Shown here piece after piece: positions 6,932 to 52,530 of a stretch of DNA of 64,000 nucleotides. Position 1 is the first letter of the stretch. Every line of letters starts with the position of its first letter. Location of the stretch: the NCBI RefSeq assembly GCF_019393635.1, contig NC_057867.1, forward strand, positions 62,627,492-62,691,491, read 5' to 3'. Origin of the DNA: Dromiciops gliroides. Lineage: Eukaryota > Chordata > Mammalia > Microbiotheria > Microbiotheriidae. The notes below the pieces were generated by a model. That model made no database searches and was not told the origin of the DNA. It worked only from the letters and a program-made list of their open reading frames with translations. The position numbers and the translations under genes are program-made.

Positions 6932-7062
6932 ATGGATGCGGGGGCGCCGGGCGCGGACGGCGGAGGTGGCCTGGGAGGCTTCGGAACCGGCCGGAGGCCT
7001 CCCCGGCCCGTGGGCCCCCTCGCCGTGGTTTCGCGACAGCCCAGCGTGGAGACCTTGGACAG
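6932..7062 (+). CDS. MTMR1: MTMR1 exon 1 (coding part)
   Basis: Start codon in a near-ideal Kozak context (GCCGCCATGG). It encodes residues 1-43 plus two bases of codon 44, opening with MDAGAPGADGGGG and ending QPSVETLD before donor AG|GTGAGG. The low-complexity Gly/Pro/Arg N-terminus is typical of MTMR1 and is a few residues shorter than the human one as I recall it. There is no in-frame ATG between this one and the conserved QPSVETLD block. Confidence 0.95.
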
Positions 7063-15060: not shown

Positions 15061-15112
15061 ATCCAGCATAGTTATTACCTACCTCTTTTTATTTTATTTA
15101 TTTATTGCCTAC

Positions 15113-15226
15113 CTCTTTTAACCATCGCTGTTCACAGTTGCACAAAAATGTCCCAAAGAGGCAACTGTGAAGGTCATCCAGGACGGTAATCAAGAAGAGT
15201 TTGTTGAATTCAAATGCTGAGGGAAA
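15113..15226 (-). pseudogene. MTMR1: Inverted duplicate of MTMR1 exon 13 in intron 2
   Basis: Read on the minus strand this matches exon 13 over all 114 nt with about seven substitutions and no indel. The acceptor (CTTTTAAG) and the GT of the donor are kept. The frame stays open, but most changes alter the residue (E to K, I to V, H to D, Y to H, Q to R, R to W), as expected without selection. Intron sequence upstream of the exon is also shared, so this is a DNA-level duplication and not a retrocopy. It is antisense to the gene, so it cannot be spliced into MTMR1 mRNA. Confidence 0.9.
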
Positions 15227-15479
15227 CTTAAAAGATGAGGAAATATTTCATTCAGATTTAAAGCACACAGTTGAAAACACAACCATTATCAACTATAAAA
15301 ATGCTTAGTCATAGTTTAGAATCTGACCAAAGGTGAACAGATGATGACTATTTGGCAAGAAAGGAAAAGCCCTCTGTCCACCCAACTCTGTTGGCTTCTG
15401 ACAATTTTAACAAAGAATTGGAAAGTAGGCTAGGGATTGCTGATAACTTTAAACAAAGAAAAGGTTCCAGGGCACAGAG

Positions 15480-17189
15480 AGATTTTGTTTAAAACCTCCC
15501 AGGCAGTCATGAAATGCTTTAGTCAGTGTTGATGATAGAACAGGTTGAGAAGTGTACTTGGCCATCGTGCTGCTGCTTGAAGCCATGTGCTGTGGGTTTG
15601 ACATGAATTGGGCTCCACCATTTATTTTTGGAAGGTTTTAGTTAATTCTTAGGTCTTACAGATATATCTACCCTTGCTGTCCTCCACCTGGGAGCTAGCT
15701 AGTTCTGTGTTTGAACAGTCTAGCAACTAGTGTTTTTGTGTTAACTACACACAAACAATATGTCAGAGAAAGGCTCCCTCTAGTATTCCTATCAAACAAG
15801 CTCTGAATTGGAAGGCTCTTCAGAGGTCATCTAGTCCAAAGCTTCTTAAACTATGGGATCGCACAACTGAATGTGGGCGTCTCAAAAAATGTGGCAGTAA
15901 ATTTTAGATTTGTAACCCTATTTTATATACCTCTTTTTTATACCTTGTAAGAGTATCTCAGACAAGTGGGTCACCCAGCCTCTGCTTGAAGACCTCCAAT
16001 GATAATCTTTTGTGACTCCTATTAACATACAAGGTACTCTGCATAACAGATAGCATCCACTTGGGGTTTTGCTACAGCAGAAGTGGCAGAATCAGACTTC
16101 CTTTCCTAAAGAAGTAGCAGCTGGAGAAACCTGGCCCTTATGTAATTTTTGGAGGGCATGTTGCCTTGCTCTGAAGGTTAAGTCCTGCTATTTCTCCTTC
16201 TCGTGGGCCAATATCCTTTGGAAATGCACTTGAACCTTTTCTGCAGTGTTATGGACTAGATTTTGTTTTTTATTCCTGCAAGGGTTTTTCTTTACATAAA
16301 AGAAAACAATAGAGAAAGGATGCCATTGTTGACCATTATACATTTTTATTTTCACTCATTTTAAAATTTAAGGTCAGAGTAAACCAGCAAAGTCCTTTGG
16401 TTTTTTGGTTTGGTACTTTTCCATTTCTTTCCCCCCTGCCCCTGCCTTTTTTTTGATGGGAGAATTCATTCTTAGGGTAAAAGTCTTCCCATCTGCCAAG
16501 ACCCTTTTGACTTTGTTAGATCTAGCATGCTTCTAGTCAAGCCAAGGTTATGTGATTGTCTCCACGTAGATCAGTTAAGCTTTGCACAGAGGAGAACCAT
16601 CTCATTTCCATGCACTACACAGCTAACTTTGGCCAGAGGTCCTCCAGATGTGAGCCACTAGTCACAGAAAGATTGAGGAAGACATTTGTAAATGGCTCAG
16701 CATGAACCCATTCCCACAACAACTGAGGAAGTGTGTGCTGACTCTGGGTCAGTGCAGTTTTTTCTTCCTCTTTTTTAAAAAAATTGACCCACTGTTTGGG
16801 CATAACATGCCCTTCCCAACATGCCCTAAACTCCCCCCTTCCCCAAATTACATTCCCTCCAAACACTTAAGCAAAACTGCCTAACAGTGTGATGGTGACT
16901 GAAAGATTTAACTCTGAGAGTTTCATACCAACATTGTCCTTTGCCATTTGTATCCAAATGTAAATAATTATATGCTGCTCTGAGAACACCCTTTAGTGAT
17001 ATAAAGCACTGGTAGCTAACTTCAAACAAATAGAAGTAGGGGTCCCAGCAACTGATCATTGTTTTTCTCTTCTGCTCTCTTCACCTGAAAAGGTGCTGGA
17101 TGTTTATTTAAAATCACCTGACAACAACATTCAGTATCTTTTCAAAGATAAACAAAAAACCACTAACAAACCCAGAGTCAGAAGCCTGT
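15480..17189. other. Segment interrupting the inverted duplication
   Basis: About 1.7 kb with no partner in intron 12. It holds a partial hAT-like MITE (15835-15950) and otherwise unassigned sequence. Confidence 0.5.
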
Positions 17190-17624
17190 ATTGTATTTGT
17201 GTAACTTAGTAAAGTTCTCTTAGATTAATGGTGTAGAAAAATGTTTTCTCAATGCCTGTCTATGCCCTTTATGAAAAAGGAAATCCGTGTTCAAGTTACC
17301 CGGAATTTCTTGATGATTTACCCCGTGACTTAGTTTCATTCACTTTTCCTAACTCTGTAGCCATTCCTTGAAAAACAAAGTAAGACCCTGTGTGTGGCAG
17401 AGAAGCTGGAGGGCTGGCCCAGAGTCAGGAAGAGCTGGCTTCAAGTCTTGCCTTCCACAAGTCCTAGTTGTGTGATCCTGGGCAAGTCACTGAACCCTCA
17501 GGGTTCCAGACACTTTCCAAGATCCCAAGTTGCAAAGCCAGGGCTGATCCTGCATTGTTAGAGGGGTTTTCCTTCACTGATGACATCAGAGTATACACAT
17601 CCCCACTCATTGGCTAGGCTAATC

Positions 17625-29821: not shown

Positions 29822-30100
29822 ACAGGCCCAGTTTCACTACTGATTGGCATGGGAGCTTTAATCCTGCTCCATTGTTATGATTATGATTATTTTATTTTCT
29901 GAGATTGAGTCTCTGTATCTCACCAAGGCTGGAAGTGCATTGGCAACCCACAGGCCCAGTTTCACTACTGATTGGCATGAGAGCTTTAATCCTGCTCCAT
30001 TTCTGACTCGGACCAGTTCCCTTTTTTAGGCAGCCTGGTGGTATGATCATTTTTATATTTCATGTTGCCATATTCTCCAAAAGAAAATGTACAAGTTTGT
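29822..30100 (-). pseudogene. RN7SL pseudogene: 7SL (SRP) RNA pseudogene with internal duplication
   Basis: Plus-strand text GAGATTGAGTCTCTGT, then AAGGCTGGAAGTGCATTGGC, is diverged antisense 7SL 3' end. It is followed by the S-domain part (CACTACTGATTGGCATGAGA, CCTGCTCCATTTCTGACTC, GGCAGCCTGGTGGT). The S-domain block at 29822-29873 recurs at 29950-30001 with one difference, period 128 bp. Similarity fades after about 30090. It is too diverged to be functional SRP RNA. Confidence 0.75.
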
Positions 30101-30767
30101 ACTTATGTCATAAAGAGTGCATGAGCCTGTTTCTCCAGCACTCTGCTAAAATTCAGCTTTAAAGTATTTTTGTCAATTTGATGGATACAGACTACCTAGA
30201 AGTTGTAATTTGCATCTCCTTTGGTTTTAATGATTTTTTTTACAAGTGATTAACAATTCATGTTTCCTCCTTTGAACATTGTTCATATCCTTTGACCATA
30301 TACACTAAGGCCTGAAAGTTGCCCTATGTAAATTTTTATTGGTAGAGTTTTAGCTGTCATGTTTGCCATAAATACTTTAACTCATCTGTAATTTTTCCTT
30401 TTAGCTGTATTGCCCATTGCTATGATAGCCTATTATTTATTGTGATTAATTTAATGTAATAAACACACTTATCTTGTCCCTATTACTTGCTTCTATTTGT
30501 TGACTAGAAAAAAGTCATATCCCCTTTTCAGTTGAGATAAGTACATTATTCCATTTTCTTCCATCTTTTTCATAAGATTTTTTTCATGTTTGTGTGTTAC
30601 CCATCTAGAATTCATTAAGATGTGTGAGGTGTGGGGGCAGCTAGATGGCGCAGTGGTTAAAGCGCTGACCCTGGATTCAGGAGTACCTGAGTTCAAATCC
30701 AGCCTCAGACACTTAACACTTACTAGCTGTGTGACTCTGGGCAAGTCACTTAACCCCCATTGCCCCC

Positions 30768-32007: not shown

Positions 32008-32184
32008 AAAAAAAATAAGAGAAAAGAAAAGCTGGGAAGCCAAAGTCAAAGTTCAATGACTTCATAAATTGACTATCAGTTTTACAGACAGCTCTACAAG
32101 CACATTTGTCTTATGACTGAATGCAGACACAGCTAAGAATGCTGCTACATATGATGTACACCAACAATGTTTGGCAGGACTTTG
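32008..32184 (+). repeat. Inverted repeat unit, left copy (intron 5)
   Basis: Bases 32016-32184 are the exact reverse complement of 38630-38798 by base-by-base reading (169 bp, no mismatch). A run of A8 here faces T9 there. Flanks do not match. The unit has no A-tail at a 3' end in either orientation and no clear target duplication, so it does not look like a standard retroposon. Confidence 0.95.
32026..32152 (+). ncRNA. Candidate H/ACA snoRNA-like element, intron 5 copy
   Basis: It folds as hairpin-hinge-hairpin-tail. Hairpin 1: AAAA-g-CTG (32027-32034) with CAGTTTT (32077-32083), inner stem AAGTCA/TGACTT. Hinge ACAGACAG, an imperfect H box (ANANNA not met at the last base). Hairpin 2: AGCA-CATT (32099-32106) with AATG-c-TGCT (32138-32146), inner stem TGTCT/AGACA with CAGCTAAG unpaired on the 3' side. 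An ACA box (32147-32149) follows the stem directly, with three bases after it. About 127 nt, the usual class length. Sense to MTMR1, as intronic snoRNAs are. I do not recognise a named snoRNA and no guide target was assigned. A chance fold is possible. Confidence 0.35.
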
Positions 32185-32214
32185 CAGATGAGAACGTTTT
32201 TTATCTAGAATGAT

Positions 32215-32367
32215 ACAGTCAGTCAGTTGGTGTTGATTAAGCACTTACTGTGTGTCGGGCACTGTGCTAAGCACTGCGGATATAAGGAAAGGCAAAACCC
32301 CCAAACTCCTGCTTTCATGGAGTTTCCAGTCTAGAGGGGGAGATAACATGGAAAAAAGATACGGAGA
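32215..32367 (-). mobile_element. L2 3' end, antisense
   Basis: GCACTTACTGTGTGTCGGGC, then CTCCTGCTTTCATGGAGTTT; continues after the SINE to about 32760. Confidence 0.75.
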
Positions 32368-32477
32368 GGGGCAGCTAGGTGCTGTAGTGGATAAAGCACC
32401 AGCCCTGGATTCAGGAGGACCTGAGTTCAAATCCAGCCTCAGACACTTGACGTTGCCCTGCAAAAAAAAAAAAAAAA
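32368..32477 (+). mobile_element. WSINE1-type SINE with internal deletion
   Basis: The middle (from CACTTGAC to TTGCCCTG) is missing, including the CTGTGTGACCCTGGGCAAG core. AAAAAAGATAC-GAGAGG flanks both sides. Confidence 0.85.
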
Positions 32478-32765
32478 GACAGAGAGAGAGAGAGAGAGAG
32501 ATAAAAAAGATACAGAGAGGATGAATTATCTCAGGGAAGACACTGAGATTAAGGAACACTGGAAAAGGCTTCTGGTAGAGGGTGAGATTTGAGTTGAAGC
32601 TTAACAGAGGCCAAGAAAGCAAAGAGGAGGAGTTGAGGAAGTAGAACATTCCAGGCATGGAAGAGGGCCAGTGAATGGGAATGTCATTGGGAAATGGAGG
32701 GTTATGTGTAACAAACAGCACTGGATCACAGAGTACATTGAGTGGGGTAAAGGAAGGTTTTTATT
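32478..32765 (-). mobile_element. L2 fragment, antisense, after (GA)n
   Basis: (GA)n at 32484-32501, then GGTGAGATTTGAGTTGAAGC and TTCCAGGCATGGAAGAGGGC in L2 order. Confidence 0.65.
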
Positions 32766-33011
32766 TGCAAGACAACACTTCATCATAAGGAAGCTTTGAT
32801 AAGGTATCTTTAAAATCCCACAATTAAAAATGTTTTTTAAATGTTTAATATCTTGGCTATTGAATTCTTATTGAGCTATACTTGTAACTTTCACTCTTTG
32901 GGTTAAGTAGAAAATTCGTGTACTTTTAAGATCAAATATTAGTTTGAGCAATATTTATAACTTGCTCTTTTTATGTTTATCTAACAAAGTATGCATTTGG
33001 GTGATTACCAG

Positions 33012-33113
33012 GATATGAGAAACTTGCGACTTGCCTATAAACAAGAAGAACAGAGTAAGCTGGGGATATTTGAAAACCTCAACAGATATGCCTTTCCTCT
33101 TTCCAATGGGCAG
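33012..33113 (+). CDS. MTMR1: MTMR1 exon 6
   Basis: Acceptor TTACCAG, donor CAG|GTAAGT; 102 nt, phase 0 at both ends. Residues 173-206 (DMRNLRLAYKQEEQSK ... FPLSNGQ), end of GRAM and linker to the phosphatase domain. Confidence 0.97.
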
Positions 33114-33415
33114 GTAAGTATATCTGAGTTAGAATTTTCCTTTGGGGATTTGGGATTCCAATATTGTAGAAACCTCCGGCCTTACTTTTGCTTGTTACTT
33201 TCACTTTTGGCACATAATGAGGTCAGTTTTCTGTTACAATACTCAAAATGTATCAGTACTACCTTATTCGAGTAAGGCTACCAATTTACTGCCTCAAACG
33301 CTATAGATTTAAATTTGGAATTTTAATAAATACAGCCTTTATCACAATGAGAACTTTTAAGATTGGATGTCTGGCAATATTGAAAAACAGAAACATTTAT
33401 GTTTTTTTGATTCAG

Positions 33416-33499
33416 GCTTTATTTGCATTCAACTATAAAGAAAAGTTTCCATCTAATGGCTGGAAGGTTTATGATCCCGTATCTGAATATAAGAGACAG
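33416..33499 (+). CDS. MTMR1: MTMR1 exon 7
   Basis: Acceptor GATTCAG, donor CAG|GTAAAT; 84 nt, phase 0. Residues 207-234 ([20 protein letters not shown] ... EYKRQ). WKVYDP and EYKRQ are conserved myotubularin blocks. Confidence 0.97.
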
Positions 33500-33779
33500 G
33501 TAAATAAATAAATGCATTTTTAACTGAAAACAATTGTTTACAGTCTTTTTTATGAAGAAATGCTTAGGATTTTTTTTCAGGAGTAAATATTTTATAAAAT
33601 ATTATCAGCTGTATTCAGGATATGAATATTCAACTATAGATAATCTGGTTTCTTAACTTTTCCTTTTTATACCCATCCTTTGATATTCCCTACTTATTAG
33701 TCCTTTTGCTGGGTTAAGAGAATTTCAAACTCAAATCTGTTGAAGTTTTTTGTCATTCAAGGCTTTATAAAAGAAGATA

Positions 33780-33930
33780 TAGGGGCAGCTAGGTGGCGCA
33801 GTGGATAGAGCACCGGCCCTGGACTCAGGAGTACCTGAGTTCAAATCTGGCCTCACACACTTAACACTTACTAGCTGTGTGACCCTGGGCAAGTCGCTTA
33901 ACCCCAATTGCCTCACTCCAAAAAAAAAAA
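33780..33930 (+). mobile_element. WSINE1-type SINE
   Basis: Target duplication AAAAGAAGATATA on both sides. Confidence 0.92.
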
Positions 33931-34361
33931 GAAGATATAAGTGAAGATCCAAACTAAGGGCTCATGGGTTTTTGGATTGTAGCAGAAATAAATCAGTTGA
34001 GCTGAAGGGCCCCCTCCCCCTTTGCTTACAATGACTTATAAAGTGTTTTCCATGCTTATGTGTCTAAAATAAAAGTTTGTGCTTTATAGGCATACATGGG
34101 TATGCACAAAATGTATACAAATGATTACATTTTATCCTTACAACCTTTTGTTCATTGTATCAGGTGCTATTAGTTTAATACTTTTTTATAGACTAAGAAA
34201 TGCATATTATGGTATCATTTAATTCTGTATGATTTAGAAATGCCTACATTTAACTAAGATCTTAGTTGCTTTAAAATGGATTATATGAAATAAAACTAAT
34301 TAGTAGTATTGAGCTTTTTTAAAATGATCAGCAAGATGTCAATAGGTTTACATTTTCTTTG

Positions 34362-34506
34362 TTTTTTGGGTGGGGCAATGAGGGTTAAGTGACTTGCCCA
34401 GGGTCACACAGCTAGTAAGTGTCAAGTGTCTGAGGCCGGATTTGAATTCAGGTACTCCTGAATCCAGGGCCGGTGTTTTATCCACTGCACCACCTAGCTG
34501 CCCCCA
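34362..34506 (-). mobile_element. WSINE1-type SINE
   Basis: Antisense; AATAGGTTTAC flanks both ends. Ends 77 nt before exon 8. Confidence 0.92.
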
Positions 34507-34583
34507 ATAGGTTTACGTTGAAAAGAAGCAACTAATATGGTTTGTGTTGAATGCTTCTTGCTTTTTTCCCTAATAACCTCTAG

Positions 34584-34733
34584 GGTTTACCAAATGAGAG
34601 CTGGAAAATATCCAAAATAAATAGTAGCTATGAGCTTTGCGATACATATCCTGCTATTATTGTTGTGCCAACTAGTGTGAAAGATGATGACCTCACAAAA
34701 GTAGCAGCATTTAGAGCAAAAGGCAGAGTTCCG
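34584..34733 (+). CDS. MTMR1: MTMR1 exon 8
   Basis: Acceptor CCTCTAG, donor CCG|GTAAGT; 150 nt, phase 0. Residues 235-284, with [20 protein letters not shown] and RAKGRVP, which begin the phosphatase domain. Confidence 0.97.
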
Positions 34734-35665
34734 GTAAGTAATAAACATACAGGTTTATTAGCTTATGAACATACATATGGGTTTATTAGCTTATTTCCCT
34801 GTGAAAATTGACAGATGTGGTTGAATAGTCGAAGGAGTATAGATATAGGCAAGTTGTCCAACAAATTAGAAAGGTGCAAAATAAGCTTCAGTTCATTGTT
34901 GGATCCTTATTTCTCAAGAATTATTTTATGCTGTGTTATGATAATTATAATACACAACATTATCATGGTGGGTAGCAACTGTATGTATGAAGATGACTTT
35001 CATTGCTTGCCAATAGGCCACCCAGAAGGTGATACTCTCAAAATATAATAGAAGAGGGGGAAAATGAGTAGCGGGAAAGAGTGAGTGTGAATTTGTTAAA
35101 ATTTTTCATGGCTGATATTCAAAGGATGATCCTGGAGAAAATACATTTCCTTAGCTACTAAGTAGAATGCTACATAAAAATATGATGTAGTTGCACAAGA
35201 GGGAGGCTTTTCCTAAGAAAATAGCAGCTAAGAGTGAACTGCTGTGTTCAGAATTTGCCTTCAGCATCATTGTAAATCATTGCCCATAAGAGGGAAAGGG
35301 GGAAAAGTAAGATATTTGGATAAATTTTAGATGGAATGAACAAAGACATTTGTTTTTCACTTTGTCCCCATCTGACCCTGTATATTAGTGTTAAAATAGA
35401 AAATTATTTAATTTACGAGTGAAAAGAAGAAACCAAAAGAAGCTAATTGAACCCAACCAGGGCGAAGTCTTAGGTAGTTAGCACCTTTTGGTTTTTCTTA
35501 GAGAATATCTAGGCCAATGTGATTTGAGCTACTCCAGGTTTTTAGTTCTAAGACTTACATAACATTGATTTGAAGAAGTATAATGTGTGTAGGTCTTTGT
35601 TGTAGCCCTGCTATGTGGGTGACTGTGAGTAAGGTATTTCACTGCTCTGGGCCTCAGTTTCTTAT
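34734..35665. other. Start of intron 8
   Basis: Unassigned, with a local short duplication (TTTATTAGCTTAT) at 34755-34795. Confidence 0.4.
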
Positions 35666-35669
35666 CACT

Positions 35670-35965
35670 TTTATTGAGGTAGTCAGTCAAGAAGCATTTA
35701 TTAAGCACCTACTATGTGCCATGCACTGGGCTAAGGATCCAAAGAAAGGTAAAAGACAGTCACTGCTCTCAAAGTGCTCACATTCTAGTGGAGGAAGCAA
35801 CATGAAAATGATTATATACAAACAAAAAGGATAAAATGGAGATACTCAATGGAGGAAAGGCTTCCTGGACAGGGTGGGATTTGAACTTGAACTTGAAGGA
35901 AGCCAAGAGAGAGAACGAAGGAGAGTATCCCATGTGTCCGAAGTTTAAGGTGTATATTGTTGGGA
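35670..35965 (-). mobile_element. L2 3' end, antisense
   Basis: GCATTTATTAAGCACCTACT, AAAGACAGTCACTGCTCTCA, GGGATTTGAACTTGAACTTG. Confidence 0.8.
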
Positions 35966-36229
35966 AAAATGTGCTATCCCAATGCAACTTTTCCCTGTGC
36001 CCACTTGATCTGCAGTGCCAGGTGCCTTTGGTGCAGAGGAGCAGTCTTCCCTTGGACCTCAGACCTTCTATGTCCAGCTGCACAGTTGGAGAGCAGGACT
36101 GCCATTTCTTACTGTGCAGGTTCAACTTCCATCTCCTGCTGTACTTGTGTCCTACTTAATATCCAGCTTGGGGCCTCCCATTTGACCATGTGCCTTCCAT
36201 CTCACCTTGTGCTTGCCTCTTAACCTGAT

Positions 36230-37455
36230 GTCTAGCATCCTTGATGAACAGTCTTGCACCTGGTCATAATCTACCCATCCCATCATCCACACTCTATTCC
36301 CTATCTGCCATCTCTTGATTCCTTATTCCCATCCCTACCCACCCCTTCTACTGTGCCCTCTGGTATGTCTGTTCCATAGGCAACAAACTTCACTTCATCC
36401 TAAATCTTGTCCTCTCCCACTCCTTTCATCTTCTAGCAGTCACTGAAACCTGGAACCCACCACCCCCAGTGACAGATACAGCCTCCCTGGCCACCCTTTC
36501 CAGTGATGGCTACACCTTTCATTCCCTTCACCTCCTTAGTCAAGTTGGGAAAGAGTTGGAATACTCCTTGTTCTCCTCTGCCACTTTCAAGTTCTCCCCC
36601 TCTCTCCATCTCTCAGTAATCTCTCCTCCTCTGAGGTCCATGTTATTGACATCTACCAACCAATCTAGATCCTGGTGACTGCTGTATATAGATCTCCAGG
36701 TCATGTGCCTTTCAACCTCAGCAAGTTTATACCTGGTTTACAATTTTTCTTCCCTCCTCAACTCCTGCCTTCATACGAGGGGACTTTAACATACATATTG
36801 ACTCACCTTCAAACACCCTAACCACTCAGTTCCTGAACTTACTCACTTCCCATGATGTACTCCTCCACCCCACCTCAGCCACATACAAAGATGGTCATAT
36901 CCTTGATCTTGCCATCACCCACAAATGTACTACCTCCACGTTCAAGAATTCTGAAATCCGCATCTTTTTATCAAAACACAGTCTATTGGCTTTCCACCTC
37001 TTCTTCTACCTTCTCTTACCAAACCCTACTCTTCATCCACACTGAGCTCCAGTGCCTTTACCCCTCAGTTCTCTCCCAGCCATCTCTTGTACACTACCCA
37101 CTCTTTCTTTAATCCAGCTTGACTTCTTGGTCAATCAGTTTAACTTTACACTGTCTTCCTCTCTCCATTCCTGACCCCCATTTTGTATCTCCAATTACGC
37201 TCGGCCAAGCCTCAGCCTTGAGTCATTCCTGCCATTCACTGGCTTCACTCCTCCACATGTACTGCTGAATGGAGGTGGAGAAAAGCACATAACCGTTTTG
37301 AATGGGTCCACAACAAATTTGTGTTACACAATCTCAACTGGGCCCTTACTGCTGCTTAGACACTTATCAACTCAACTATCCCACTCTACGCTTCAACCCT
37401 CCACAGATGTCCTATGGCTCCCTTTCCCCTCACCCTCTCCGAGAACTTTGCCTCA

Positions 37456-37460
<5 letters not shown>
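36230..37460 (+). mobile_element. L2/CR1 LINE endonuclease region, sense
   Basis: Plus-strand translation holds GDFNIHIDSPSNTL, the GDFN motif of the APE-type endonuclease, followed by SATYKDGHILDLAIT. Upstream and downstream L2 coding text is broken by stops. The element runs into a (CA)n tract. Confidence 0.85.

Positions 37461-37502
<42 letters not shown>
37459..37502. repeat. (CA)n microsatellite
   Basis: About 21 CA units. Confidence 0.95.
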
Positions 37503-37504
<2 letters not shown>

Positions 37505-37740
37505 ATACAAAATAAACTGAAGATAGTCTTAGAGGGCAAACAGGAAGATTCAAGAGGACTTGGAAGGGCCTGTTGTAGCTAAGACTTGAAGAAAGCCAGG
37601 CAAGTCGGGAGGGAGGGATGAGGGAGAGAGTTCCAGATTTGGGGGACTGGAGATAGAATAGCTTGTCCAAGGAGCACTAAGAGGGCCAGTTTCACTGGAT
37701 TGCAGAGGACGTGGAAGGGAGGAAGTTACAATTCTTTTTA
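37503..37740 (-). mobile_element. L2 fragment, antisense
   Basis: AGACTTGAAGAAAGCCAGGC and GTTCCAGATTTGGGGGACTG; ends 44 nt before exon 9. Confidence 0.65.
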
Positions 37741-37784
37741 TTACAGTTCTCTATACTGACATCTATCCTTTACAAACAAACTAG

Positions 37785-37973
37785 GTCTTGTCCTGGATTC
37801 ATCCTGAGAGTCAGGCAACAATAACTCGATGCAGCCAGCCACTTGTAGGCCCGAATGATAAACGCTGCAAAGAAGATGAAAAATACTTGCAGACGATAAT
37901 GGATGCAAACGCCCAGTCACACAAACTTCTTATCTTTGATGCCAGACAGAACAGTGTCGCTGATACTAACAAG
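37785..37973 (+). CDS. MTMR1: MTMR1 exon 9
   Basis: Acceptor AAACTAG, donor AAG|GTACGT; 189 nt, phase 0. Residues 285-347. Carries the family signature [20 protein letters not shown] and the segment [16 protein letters not shown]. Confidence 0.98.
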
Positions 37974-38214
37974 GTACGTCCTTAGAAGAGACCTGAGAGA
38001 CGTCATTGCAAAGTAAGCCTAGGAGAGAAATGGGTGCATTTCCAACGACTGACTTCTTTCCTCCTTAAAGGCACCAAGCACTCTGAATAGCCCGAAGATT
38101 TTGAATTCATGTTTACACTTGTCTCTGATCTGTCCTTTTAATATTATGAGATAAGGCTTCTTTTTTCTTTTTTCCTCTTTACCACTTTGGGGAATGTAAG
38201 ATATAAGCGGAATG

Positions 38215-38360
38215 GGGCAGCTAGTCGGCACAGTGGATAGAGCACCGGCCCTGGATTCAGGAGGACTTGAGTTCAAATGTGACCTCAAACACTTGATACT
38301 TACTAGCTGTGTGACCCTGGGCAAGTCACTTGACCCCAATTGCCTCACCAAAAAAAAAAG
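38215..38360 (+). mobile_element. WSINE1-type SINE
   Basis: AGATATAAGC flanks both ends. Confidence 0.92.
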
Positions 38361-38629
38361 ATATAAGCAGAAGTCTTGTCTCTTGTGCCAACTAATTACC
38401 TGTCTAGAAAGGGTGTGGATGTCCCAAGTAGGAAATAATTATTTCATTGAAATGAGCTTGAGATGAAATGCTGTTATTCTCCCCACCCTACCCCCGAGTG
38501 CATCTTTAATGATCATAGCTCCCTTTCCCAACGTCAAACTTATGCAGTACAGTGATACCATCATCTTAAAATCTTCTGGAAATGAAGTTCTTTTCTAAAG
38601 AGGTTACTGTATTAGAACAGGTAGTTTTC

Positions 38630-38807
38630 CAAAGTCCTGCCAAACATTGTTGGTGTACATCATATGTAGCAGCATTCTTAGCTGTGTCTGCATTCAGTCA
38701 TAAGACAAATGTGCTTGTAGAGCTGTCTGTAAAACTGATAGTCAATTTATGAAGTCATTGAACTTTGACTTTGGCTTCCCAGCTTTTCTTTTCTCTTATT
38801 TTTTTTT
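38630..38807 (-). repeat. Inverted repeat unit, right copy (intron 9)
   Basis: Partner of the intron 5 unit, in opposite orientation. The two are 6.4 kb apart and bracket exons 6, 7, 8 and 9. Confidence 0.95.
38662..38788 (-). ncRNA. Candidate H/ACA snoRNA-like element, intron 9 copy (antisense)
   Basis: Identical sequence to the intron 5 candidate but on the minus strand. It would be antisense to MTMR1, so it could not be released from the MTMR1 intron as a snoRNA. If the element is real, the intron 5 copy is the likelier source. Confidence 0.25.
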
Positions 38808-39945
38808 CCTCTGTAGTGCCTTGTCCCTCTTTACCCTACCAATAAGAAAGAATCTGATAACACTCATTTATACATGCTGGTTGACTGATTACACTTAATT
38901 GGGGATGAGTTTCAGACAGTATATCATTTCAGTCAAGCCTTTCATTTAAAGCATTTTATCTCTAATTGTGTGACACTTTGTCCCATTAAAGGGATGTCAG
39001 GCATCAGTAAGCAGATGGAGATTTTGGGGGTTGGGTAGGGCATGGGAAAGCTTCTAGCAGTATGAAGATACTAGGTCCCATTGTCCCCAGCTTAGGCTAG
39101 AATTTGGAATCTGTCGTGTGCTTGCACATACGTGTTTACCATATGCTTTCCTCCAGACATTCCCCAAATCCCTTCTCTAGCCTCTTCCACTCTATCTTCC
39201 TCATTTTTCCTCAGGCTACCATATAGATAGGTATATATATGTGTGTATATACGTATAGATATGCTTGTTTATATTTTATGCTTCTCAGGATAGTTGACGT
39301 TAATGTTCATTATATTTTTGTGACATAAAATGGAGAGCTCTGTGGTCACCAAAGGTGTTTGCAATTGTCATGGACGTTCTTTGCACAGAGTACAGAGGAA
39401 GAGCAATTCCTCATAGGTGGGGAGGTCTTCCAGCTGCTCCCATTTGCAAATGATAGGCTTGCTTGGATCAACCTCCATGTATTTCACACAAGCCTTTGCT
39501 CATGCCTGGAATATATTTGTTCTTTTCTCTACTTCTTTATCTTCAGGACCTAACCCCAGATTCCACTTCCTCTCTGAAGTCTTTTTTTTTTTTTTTTGGA
39601 TTACTCCTATTGCTAATGCATTTTCCCTTCTCACTTTTCCTAGTACTATACTTATTTATGTAAATGTTGGATCCTCCTAGTAGAATGCAAGCTTATTGAG
39701 GGCAGAAACTGTTTTATTGCTGTCTTTGTATCCCTGGTGTGTTATGTGACCTCAGTTACTCAAAAGATGAGCTTAACAATCTATACAGGAGAAACTAAGC
39801 TGATAAAATCCTTATTGATTGCATTATGACATATAGTTGGAATTAACATATCAGTATATTTATATGTGAAAGTTTCTACACATGCCCAGTGACACATATA
39901 TCTATATTATAATTCAATGAATATGACACCCAGTTGCTCATAAAT
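38808..39945. other. Intron 9, largely unassigned
   Basis: Short (TATATG)n at 39228-39260 and an L2 sense 3' end at about 39480-39750 (GAATGCAAGCTTATTGAGGG). Confidence 0.4.
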
Positions 39946-44699: not shown

Positions 44700-44852
44700 G
44701 GGGGCAGCTAGGTGGCGCAGTGGATAGAGCACCGGCCCTGGAGTCAGGAGTACCTGAGTTCAAAATCCGGCCTCAGACACTTAACACTTACTAGCTGTGT
44801 GACCCTGGGCAAGTCACTTAACCCCAATTGCCTCACTAAAAAAAAAAAAAAG
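44700..44852 (+). mobile_element. WSINE1-type SINE
   Basis: GCAGTGCTTTAG flanks both ends. Confidence 0.93.
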
Positions 44853-47456: not shown

Positions 47457-47609
47457 TTTTTTTTTTTTTTTTAGTGAGGCAATTGGGGTTAAGTGACTTG
47501 CCCAGGGTCACACAGCTAGTAAGTGTTAAGTGTCTGAGGCCGGATTTGAACTCAGGTCCTCCTGACTCCAGGGCCGGTGCTCTATCCACTGCGCCACCTA
47601 GCTGCCCCG
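47457..47609 (-). mobile_element. WSINE1-type SINE
   Basis: Antisense; GAGGGTAGGTACTC flanks both ends. Confidence 0.93.
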
Positions 47610-49560: not shown

Positions 49561-50095
49561 CTTCTAATCGCATTTATGGCCTTGGATTAAGAGGACCAGG
49601 CCTCTGCTTGTACAGATACACTGACTTGCCACCAAGATTAAAAGGAAGGAAATGACAGTACGGACTCAGATGTGACTTATCTGTAATGTGGCCGAGAACT
49701 CAGAAGGAAGCAAAGGGATATGCCTCCGAGGAAGCAAAAGCCATTTCCCATACTTCATATACTCGGTTTATAAGACAAATGCTTCTCTCAAAATCAATTT
49801 GCTATTCTTTTATGAACTATGCTAACAAACAGTCGTTTGATTTCCCAGCTTACATACTAGAAGAGCAGCAGGAGTAAGACGGAGGAAGAGAACAAGTACA
49901 GGCAGGCATGATGACAGCTGCGACAGGAAGAGCCAAGTATGCAGGGCCATTTAGTGTGGTAGAAAATATTCCTATGTGTATCAGTAGCCCCTGAAGATAT
50001 CTCTGTGTTACACTGATTTGTATTCATAATGACAGTACTAAGCCACCAAGAAAAGATTCAAACATATGCATTATACTTTATTTAAGAATGCAAGG

Positions 50096-50248
50096 GGGCA
50101 GCTAGATGGCGCAGTGGTTAAAGCACCAGCCCTGGATTCAGGAGTACCTGAGTTCAAATCCGGCCTCAGACACTTGACACTTACTAGCTGTGTGACTCTG
50201 GGCAAGTCACTTAACCCCCATTGCCTAAAAAAAAAAAAAAAAAAAAAA
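50096..50248 (+). mobile_element. WSINE1-type SINE, cluster member 1
   Basis: Preceded by AAGAATGCAAGGGG, which recurs after its A-tail. Confidence 0.92.
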
Positions 50249-50258
50249 GAATGCAAGG

Positions 50259-50412
50259 GGAGCAGCTAGGTGGCACAGTGGATAGAGCACTGGCCCTGGA
50301 TTCAGGAGGACCTGAGTTCAAATCCAGCCTCAGACCCTTGACACTTAGTAGCTGTGTGACCCTGGGCAAGTCACTTAACCCCAATTGCCTCACACACACA
50401 CAAAAAAAAAAA
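50259..50412 (+). mobile_element. WSINE1-type SINE, cluster member 2
   Basis: Starts directly after the second GAATGCAAGGGG; tail with (CA)n. Confidence 0.92.
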
Positions 50413-50422
50413 GAATGCAAGG

Positions 50423-50570
50423 GGGCAACTAGGTGGCACAGTGGATAAAGCACCAACCCCGACCCCGGAGTCAGGAGGACCTAGGTTCAAATGTGGCCTC
50501 AGACACTTGACACTTACTAGCTGTGTGACCTCGGGCAAGTCACTTAACCCTCATTGCCCTGCCCAAAAAA
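50423..50570 (+). mobile_element. WSINE1-type SINE, cluster member 3
   Basis: Starts after the third AGAATGCAAGGGG; contains an ACCCCGACCCCGG imperfection in the head. Confidence 0.92.
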
Positions 50571-50735: not shown

Positions 50736-51061
50736 ATTTTAAAATGCATATAAGTATATCTTAAGAAAAGTTCTATAAGCAATTGTTGAAATAAGCAAAG
50801 TTTGAGAATAAAATTCAGTTATTTGAACAGTCAACCTAAATGGAACAGCACATTTACAGTGATAGGTTATTGAGGTGTTGGTGTATATGTAATTTCTTTT
50901 CTGCTTTTGACCTGATTTCTGTTCTAGTTTGTTTAGTCCCTGGGCATCTGGGCCAGTGCTGATTTATGCAACTGGACTATATTGGTTTTGCACTCATTCA
51001 TGTGTCCTTAATATAGTTGCAATAAGAATATAACTAATTTTTTTTTTAAGTCGTTGTTAGG

Positions 51062-51220
51062 GAGGGCAGTTAGGTGGTGCAGTGGATAAAGCACTGGCCC
51101 TGGATTCAGGAGGACCTGAGTTCAAATCTGTCCTCAGACACTTAACACTTACTAGCTGTGTGACCCTGGGCAAGTCACTTAACTCCCATTGCCCTGCAAA
51201 AAAAAACAAAAACAAAAAAG
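51062..51220 (+). mobile_element. WSINE1-type SINE
   Basis: GTTGTTAGGG precedes it and recurs after its A-rich tail. Confidence 0.92.
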
Positions 51221-51232
51221 TTGTTGTTAGGG

Positions 51233-51380
51233 GACAGCTAGATGGTGCAGTGGATAAAGCACCGGCCCTGGATTCAGGAGGACCTGAGTTCAAATCCAGC
51301 CTCAGACACTTGACACTTACTAGCTGTGTGACCCTGGGCAAATCACTTAACTCTCATTGCCCCACAAAAAAAAAAAAAAT
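51233..51380 (+). mobile_element. WSINE1-type SINE
   Basis: Directly follows the previous SINE after the shared GTTGTTAGGGG. Confidence 0.92.
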
Positions 51381-51839: not shown

Positions 51840-52530
51840 TCAGAGCTTCTGTTCTGCAACTTAGAATCTTAGGAAGTTGTCTGGAGCCCTAAGAGGATTG
51901 GCGACTTGCTCAGGGTCACACAGCCAGGACATGTCGGAGGCAGGACTTCCAGCCTCTCTGCCACATGGTCTTAATTTGGTTTTCAGTTAATTGCTACAGA
52001 GTTAGGAAAAGTGACCTAAGCTAAGTCATGGGGAAAATAATCAGAAATTTCCAGGTTACTCGAATATGGAACAATGCATGTAGAATCCCTTTTTTCATAA
52101 AGGGTGTAGAGAGACTTTGAGAATCTCAAACACTTTTATCCACTATATTTAAGAGAACTTTACTAATCTACACAATGTCCTGGAACCTTTTCTTTGTTTA
52201 AAGTTATCAGCAAGCCCTAGCCTACTTTCTAATTCTTGTCAAAAGCCAACAGAGTTGGGTGGGTAAAGGGCTTTTCCTTTCTAACCAAATAGTCATAATC
52301 TGTTCACCTTTGGTCAAATGCTAAATTCTGGCTAAGCATTTTTATAGTCAATAATGATTGTGTTTTGACTGTGTGCTTTAAATCTGAACCAAATGTTTCC
52401 TCATCTTTTAAGTTTCCCTCAGCATTTGAATTCAACGAACTCTTCTTGATTACCATCCTGGATCACCTTTACAGTTGCCTCTTTGGGACTTTTTTGTGCA
52501 ACTGTGAACAGCAACGGTTAAAAGAGGTAA
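51840..52530 (+). repeat. Right arm of inverted segmental duplication (includes exon 13)
   Basis: The parent arm: end of intron 12, exon 13 and its donor. Similarity to the left arm stops within a few bases of the exon 13 donor, which marks one breakpoint of the duplication. Confidence 0.85.
52413..52526 (+). CDS. MTMR1: MTMR1 exon 13 (last exon in window)
   Basis: Acceptor CTTTTAAG, donor GAG|GTAAAT; 114 nt, phase 0. Residues 510-547 ([20 protein letters not shown] ... CEQQRLKE). An inverted copy of this exon with flanking intron lies in intron 2 (15113-15226). The next expected block (DVYTKTISLW-like) was not found between 52527 and 64000. Confidence 0.97.

Follow-up and report, generated by a model that had tools for sequence, protein, structure and literature searches.

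The 64-kb window (the whole stretch of DNA analysed here) carries a gene that, judged by similarity to known proteins, is the orthologue of MTMR1 and a close match to human MTMR1. Using tblastn with MTMR1-like segments as queries, we placed exons 2–13 on the + strand and then read their splice sites. The candidate for exon 1 at position 7031 is a weak 10-residue match (E 0.15) and exons beyond 13 were not found in the window by tblastn, so the exon numbering used here is provisional. The translation of exon 9 is identical to MTMR1 chain 5c16 at 62 of 63 residues. When exons 5–11 were joined, their best match was again 5c16 (746.7 bits vs 584.2 for MTMR2), and the joined sequence carries the myotubularin-like phosphatase domain PF06602. 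Four exons matter most for what follows, all on the + strand: exon 6 (33012–33113, 102 nt), exon 7 (33416–33499, 84 nt) and exon 8 (34584–34733, 150 nt), each placed by tblastn and splice sites, and exon 9 (37785–37973, 189 nt), placed by its match to 5c16 and splice sites. These have the same strand and order as exons 2–5 and 10–13.

Extent, copy number and junctions of an inverted pair

An earlier note on this DNA had reported an exact inverted repeat of about 170 bp (169 bases, 32016–32184 and 38630–38798) whose arms lie some 6.4 kb apart and bracket exons 6–9. The repeat is real and its arms are slightly longer than described: positions 32008–32184 (left arm, +) and 38630–38806 (right arm, −) are reverse complements at 177 of 177 bases and the gap between them is 6,445 bases. 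The left arm lies within intron 5 (1,240 bases), 827 bases before exon 6, and the right arm lies within intron 9 (6,347 bases), 656 bases after exon 9. The bracketing of exons 6–9 was thus borne out as well, the numbering agreeing with the exons we located (with exon 1 as the weak match given above). One end of the arm falls in an A/T run, with 8 A at the left locus and 9 T at the right, and the boundary there is therefore uncertain by about 1 base. The probability that an exact match of 177 bases arose by chance is negligible.

Among the 25 matches listed of the 217 inverted pairs in the window, 100% identity is unique to this pair, and it is likewise the only pair at 100% among 35 low-copy rows. 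By reading, all but one of the other 24 listed matches resemble the multi-copy SINE family of the window; the exception pairs 15110–15276 with 52363–52529 and belongs to the older duplication described below. Elsewhere in the window the arm has no convincing match: a third copy was not found in the 64 kb (best other nhmmer match, E = 1.8), and other blastn matches of the arm extend over 11–33 bases, the strongest (E 0.002) falling in its A-rich end. In viral contigs, where such DNA is not expected, a 29-base core had 0 matches. We rejected the presence of a known RNA family in the arm on the Rfam results: a search of the window gave 0 matches at the gathering score, and around the right arm there was one chance-level match, to NEAT1_2 (12.8 bits; cut-off, 60). 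Folds of the arm (150/177 bases) gave z scores of −0.69 and −0.92 relative to shuffled sequences, 42/200 and 32/200 of which folded as well. In literature listings on MTMR1 inverted repeats, MTMR1 circRNA and back-splicing, marsupial inversion and conversion we found no description of this inverted repeat.

The ends of the arms are abrupt, which confirms another observation of the earlier note. Four comparisons of the flanks (300-base and 60-base) revealed no homology beyond the arm ends, with 51 to 187 of 200 shuffles scoring as high. The right arm is bracketed by a direct repeat, TTTTCC, at its proximal (38625–38630, +) and distal (38804–38809, +) ends, and it has no poly(A) tract at its right end, yet the 6-base repeat is there; the flanks of the left arm share a direct repeat of only 3 bases. 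A direct repeat of at least 6 bases occurred at 800 of 20,000 random sites (4.0%) and two arm copies were tested, so that the repeat is a weak hint, read from the junctions, that the right copy is the insert. We also joined the flanks and compared them with the window for an older repeat with the site still empty, which would have shown the direction of copying; two matches spanned the join, both short (E 2.3 and 0.19). In whichever orientation either copy is read, its A/T run lies at the end opposite to the one expected of LINE-primed insertion. For this reason, and because the left copy lacks a direct repeat of at least 5 bp, LINE-primed retroposition and class 1 TSIP (see below) were rejected.

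An older inverted duplication in MTMR1

The gene also contains a second inverted duplication. Positions 51855–52529 (+), which run from the last part of intron 12 through exon 13 to 3 bases past it, recur in inverted orientation in intron 2 at 15110–17534, where the copy is split by 1,722 bases into two pieces (15110–15474 and 17197–17534, both −). The direction of copying is clear here, from the exon 13 locus into intron 2, because the exon 13 query matches exon 13 in place better (94.9%) than the intron 2 copy (79.5%). Intronic identity within this duplication is unequal, being 215/237 (90.7%) next to the exon and 153/189 (81%) beyond the split (Fisher p = 0.004); over the whole far-side part, 243 of 299 bases are identical. 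Either a later conversion that affected one part or a pair of separate events would account for this inequality. More than one inverted self-copy has therefore arisen in MTMR1, and not at the same time, although the survey covered this gene only and does not mark it as unusual.

Origin of the 177-base pair

We consider it likely that the 177-base inverted duplication in MTMR1 is the product of one recent templated insertion in which a piece of intron 5 was copied, reversed, into intron 9. Templated inverted insertion is an already known class of mutation. DNA synthesis or break repair would have copied the intron 5 sequence as follows: synthesis near 38630 would have jumped about 6.4 kb onto the intron 5 template, copied 177 bases as far as the A/T run of the template, and returned through pairing between a short run of T and the TTTT at the site it had left, whereupon TTTTCC would have been copied again. 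The TTTTCC repeat fits such a return jump, with six bases re-copied through TTTT, or else a small target duplication. How the copy was made, in which direction and that it is recent are inferred, and with them the role of the left arm as template and, from its flanking direct repeat, that of the right arm as insert.

Several observations favour a templated insertion. The feature by which such insertions are recognised, identity of the insert to a template elsewhere, was found at 177 of 177 bases within the window; only two copies occur in the 64 kb, their ends are abrupt, and no Rfam family matches. The direct repeat brackets the right copy (6 bases vs 3 at the left), exons 6–9 are unflipped, and MTMR1 also holds the older inverted self-copy. 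In addition, the arm length is inside the range of 73–414 bp (median 191) given for templated insertions at induced breaks (PMC5110952), and template switches are described as often leaving a perfect inverted repeat (PMC7954356). Against this origin, the direct repeat is weak evidence given its frequency at random sites, the joined flanks matched no convincing empty site in the window, and a jump of 6.4 kb exceeds the short-range switches described in the latter source.

Like the templated sequence insertions (TSI and TSIP) of PMC5110952, for which intronic templates have been reported, the pair would involve a short piece copied from elsewhere into a new place; unlike them, it has its predicted template 6.4 kb off within one and the same gene, and the copy is inverted. 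As outlined in that report, class 1 TSIP have a target duplication plus poly(A) and class 2 TSIP have no target duplication, whereas the right copy in MTMR1 has a 6-base direct repeat (unlike class 2) and a right end free of a poly(A) tract (unlike class 1). By the class features given there, the MTMR1 pair fits neither TSIP class cleanly. Reverse-oriented copying would be common to it and short-range template switching, but the switches described in PMC7954356 stay within a single replication fork. In PMC8421209, two people were found to carry 103 and 99 germline templated insertions of 25 bp or more; these MMB-TI, linked to MMBIR, are likewise templated insertions, and microhomology is a feature of theirs. 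At the MTMR1 junction, the TTTT return match is compatible with microhomology.

For estimates of age, we took the neutral rate to lie between 1 and 3e-9 per site per year. Zero differences in 177 bases then give a 95% upper bound of 8.5, 4.2 and 2.8 million years at rates of 1, 2 and 3e-9, respectively, provided that the arms have not since been made identical again by conversion.

To account for the perfect identity in introns the earlier note had named three possibilities: a recent event, gene conversion between the arms, and constraint. The recent local event fits best, given two copies in the window, abrupt ends and the lack of an RNA family. Nothing calls for conversion. An older inverted duplication whose arms were kept identical by gene conversion seems to us improbable: the unequal intronic identity of the older MTMR1 duplication is what partial conversion could leave, but two separate events could leave it too, and the flanks of the 177-base arms retain no residual homology of an older duplication. 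Nor is the GC content of the arm raised; at 36.2% (window, 40.2%) it stands at the 27th percentile of 177-base windows and shows no trace of prolonged GC-biased conversion, weak as this evidence is. Constraint in the form of selection on an intronic RNA duplex would have to be judged highly improbable. The arm pair does have the lowest predicted duplex energy of 104 pairs (−321.4 kcal/mol), but the next pair is close (−313.3 kcal/mol), neither strand of the arm folds clearly better than shuffles, and a duplex, which can accommodate G-U pairs as well as paired changes, does not depend on perfect identity of the DNA.

Perfect identity, and a length near the scale of short reads, would also be expected if the assembly had placed one intron piece twice. 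We regard such an error as distinctly improbable, since each arm ends abruptly against flanks of its own and the window contains no N and writes out both a 33-base A run and a 26.5-copy TA run, which suggests continuous sequence without proving it. It is very unlikely that the arms represent a young mobile-element family inserted twice in MTMR1, for 64 kb contain no diverged third copy, the left copy has no target duplication (3 bases), and neither copy has its A/T run where LINE priming would put it. Inversions through staggered breaks leave inverted duplications at their ends, and one of these could in principle have produced the two arms. A single such inversion was rejected because it would have flipped exons 6–9, which keep the strand and order of the exons on either side; only with a second, exact re-inversion could it be reconciled with the gene as it stands, and we find this scenario scarcely credible.

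If the pair is indeed one recent templated insertion, it provides a clean natural example of templated inverted insertion reaching over several kilobases, and comparison with a few related species could reveal when and in which direction the copy was made. Otherwise it is an ordinary structural mutation within introns.

Predicted pairing of introns 5 and 9

We compared predicted RNA duplex energies for 104 inverted pairs found by blastn, all at least 60 nt long and at most 20 kb apart. The arm pair ranks first among them but is no outlier. Six pairs lie between exon 4 and exon 10; three of the others score −281 to −250 kcal/mol and, by these predictions, would compete with the arm duplex. Exons 6–9 sum to 525 nt, which is divisible by three, and the corresponding circle can be read through twice with no stop codon. 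In the pre-mRNA, introns 5 and 9 would, on the predicted energies, be capable of pairing with each other, and this might promote back-splicing (a 525-nt circle) or in-frame skipping of exons 6–9.

In C. elegans, back-splicing and skipping alike are promoted when the flanking introns contain reverse complementary matches (PMC8330042). As there, complementary introns surround a run of exons in MTMR1, at 827 and 656 bases from the nearest exons. The match described there in zip-2 is 13 nt long; in MTMR1 any such effect is a prediction. A bolder reading is that one copying error made an RNA switch, with a 177-bp duplex directing both a stop-free 525-nt circle of exons 6–9 and an in-frame skip of 175 codons, in a gene that repeatedly gains inverted self-copies; we think this unlikely. 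If the pair is one recent event, the locus would also allow a test in nature of whether a single new inverted repeat with perfect arms in introns suffices to start circularisation or skipping of the exons it encloses.

Other features of the window include an inverted pair in intron 10 (44701–44851 and 47459–47608), probably SINE copies, which is 98.7% identical over 151 nt and has the third-lowest duplex energy of the 104 pairs. A probable 7SL (SRP) RNA pseudogene lies at 29950–30131 (−), below the Rfam cut-off (17.7 of 70 bits, E 0.017), and a 52-base piece of it is repeated directly at 29822–29873 (98%). Two SINE-like tandem arrays are also present, one at 50084–50558 with 2.9 copies of 164 bases and the other at 51048–51379 with 2.0 copies of 168 bases.
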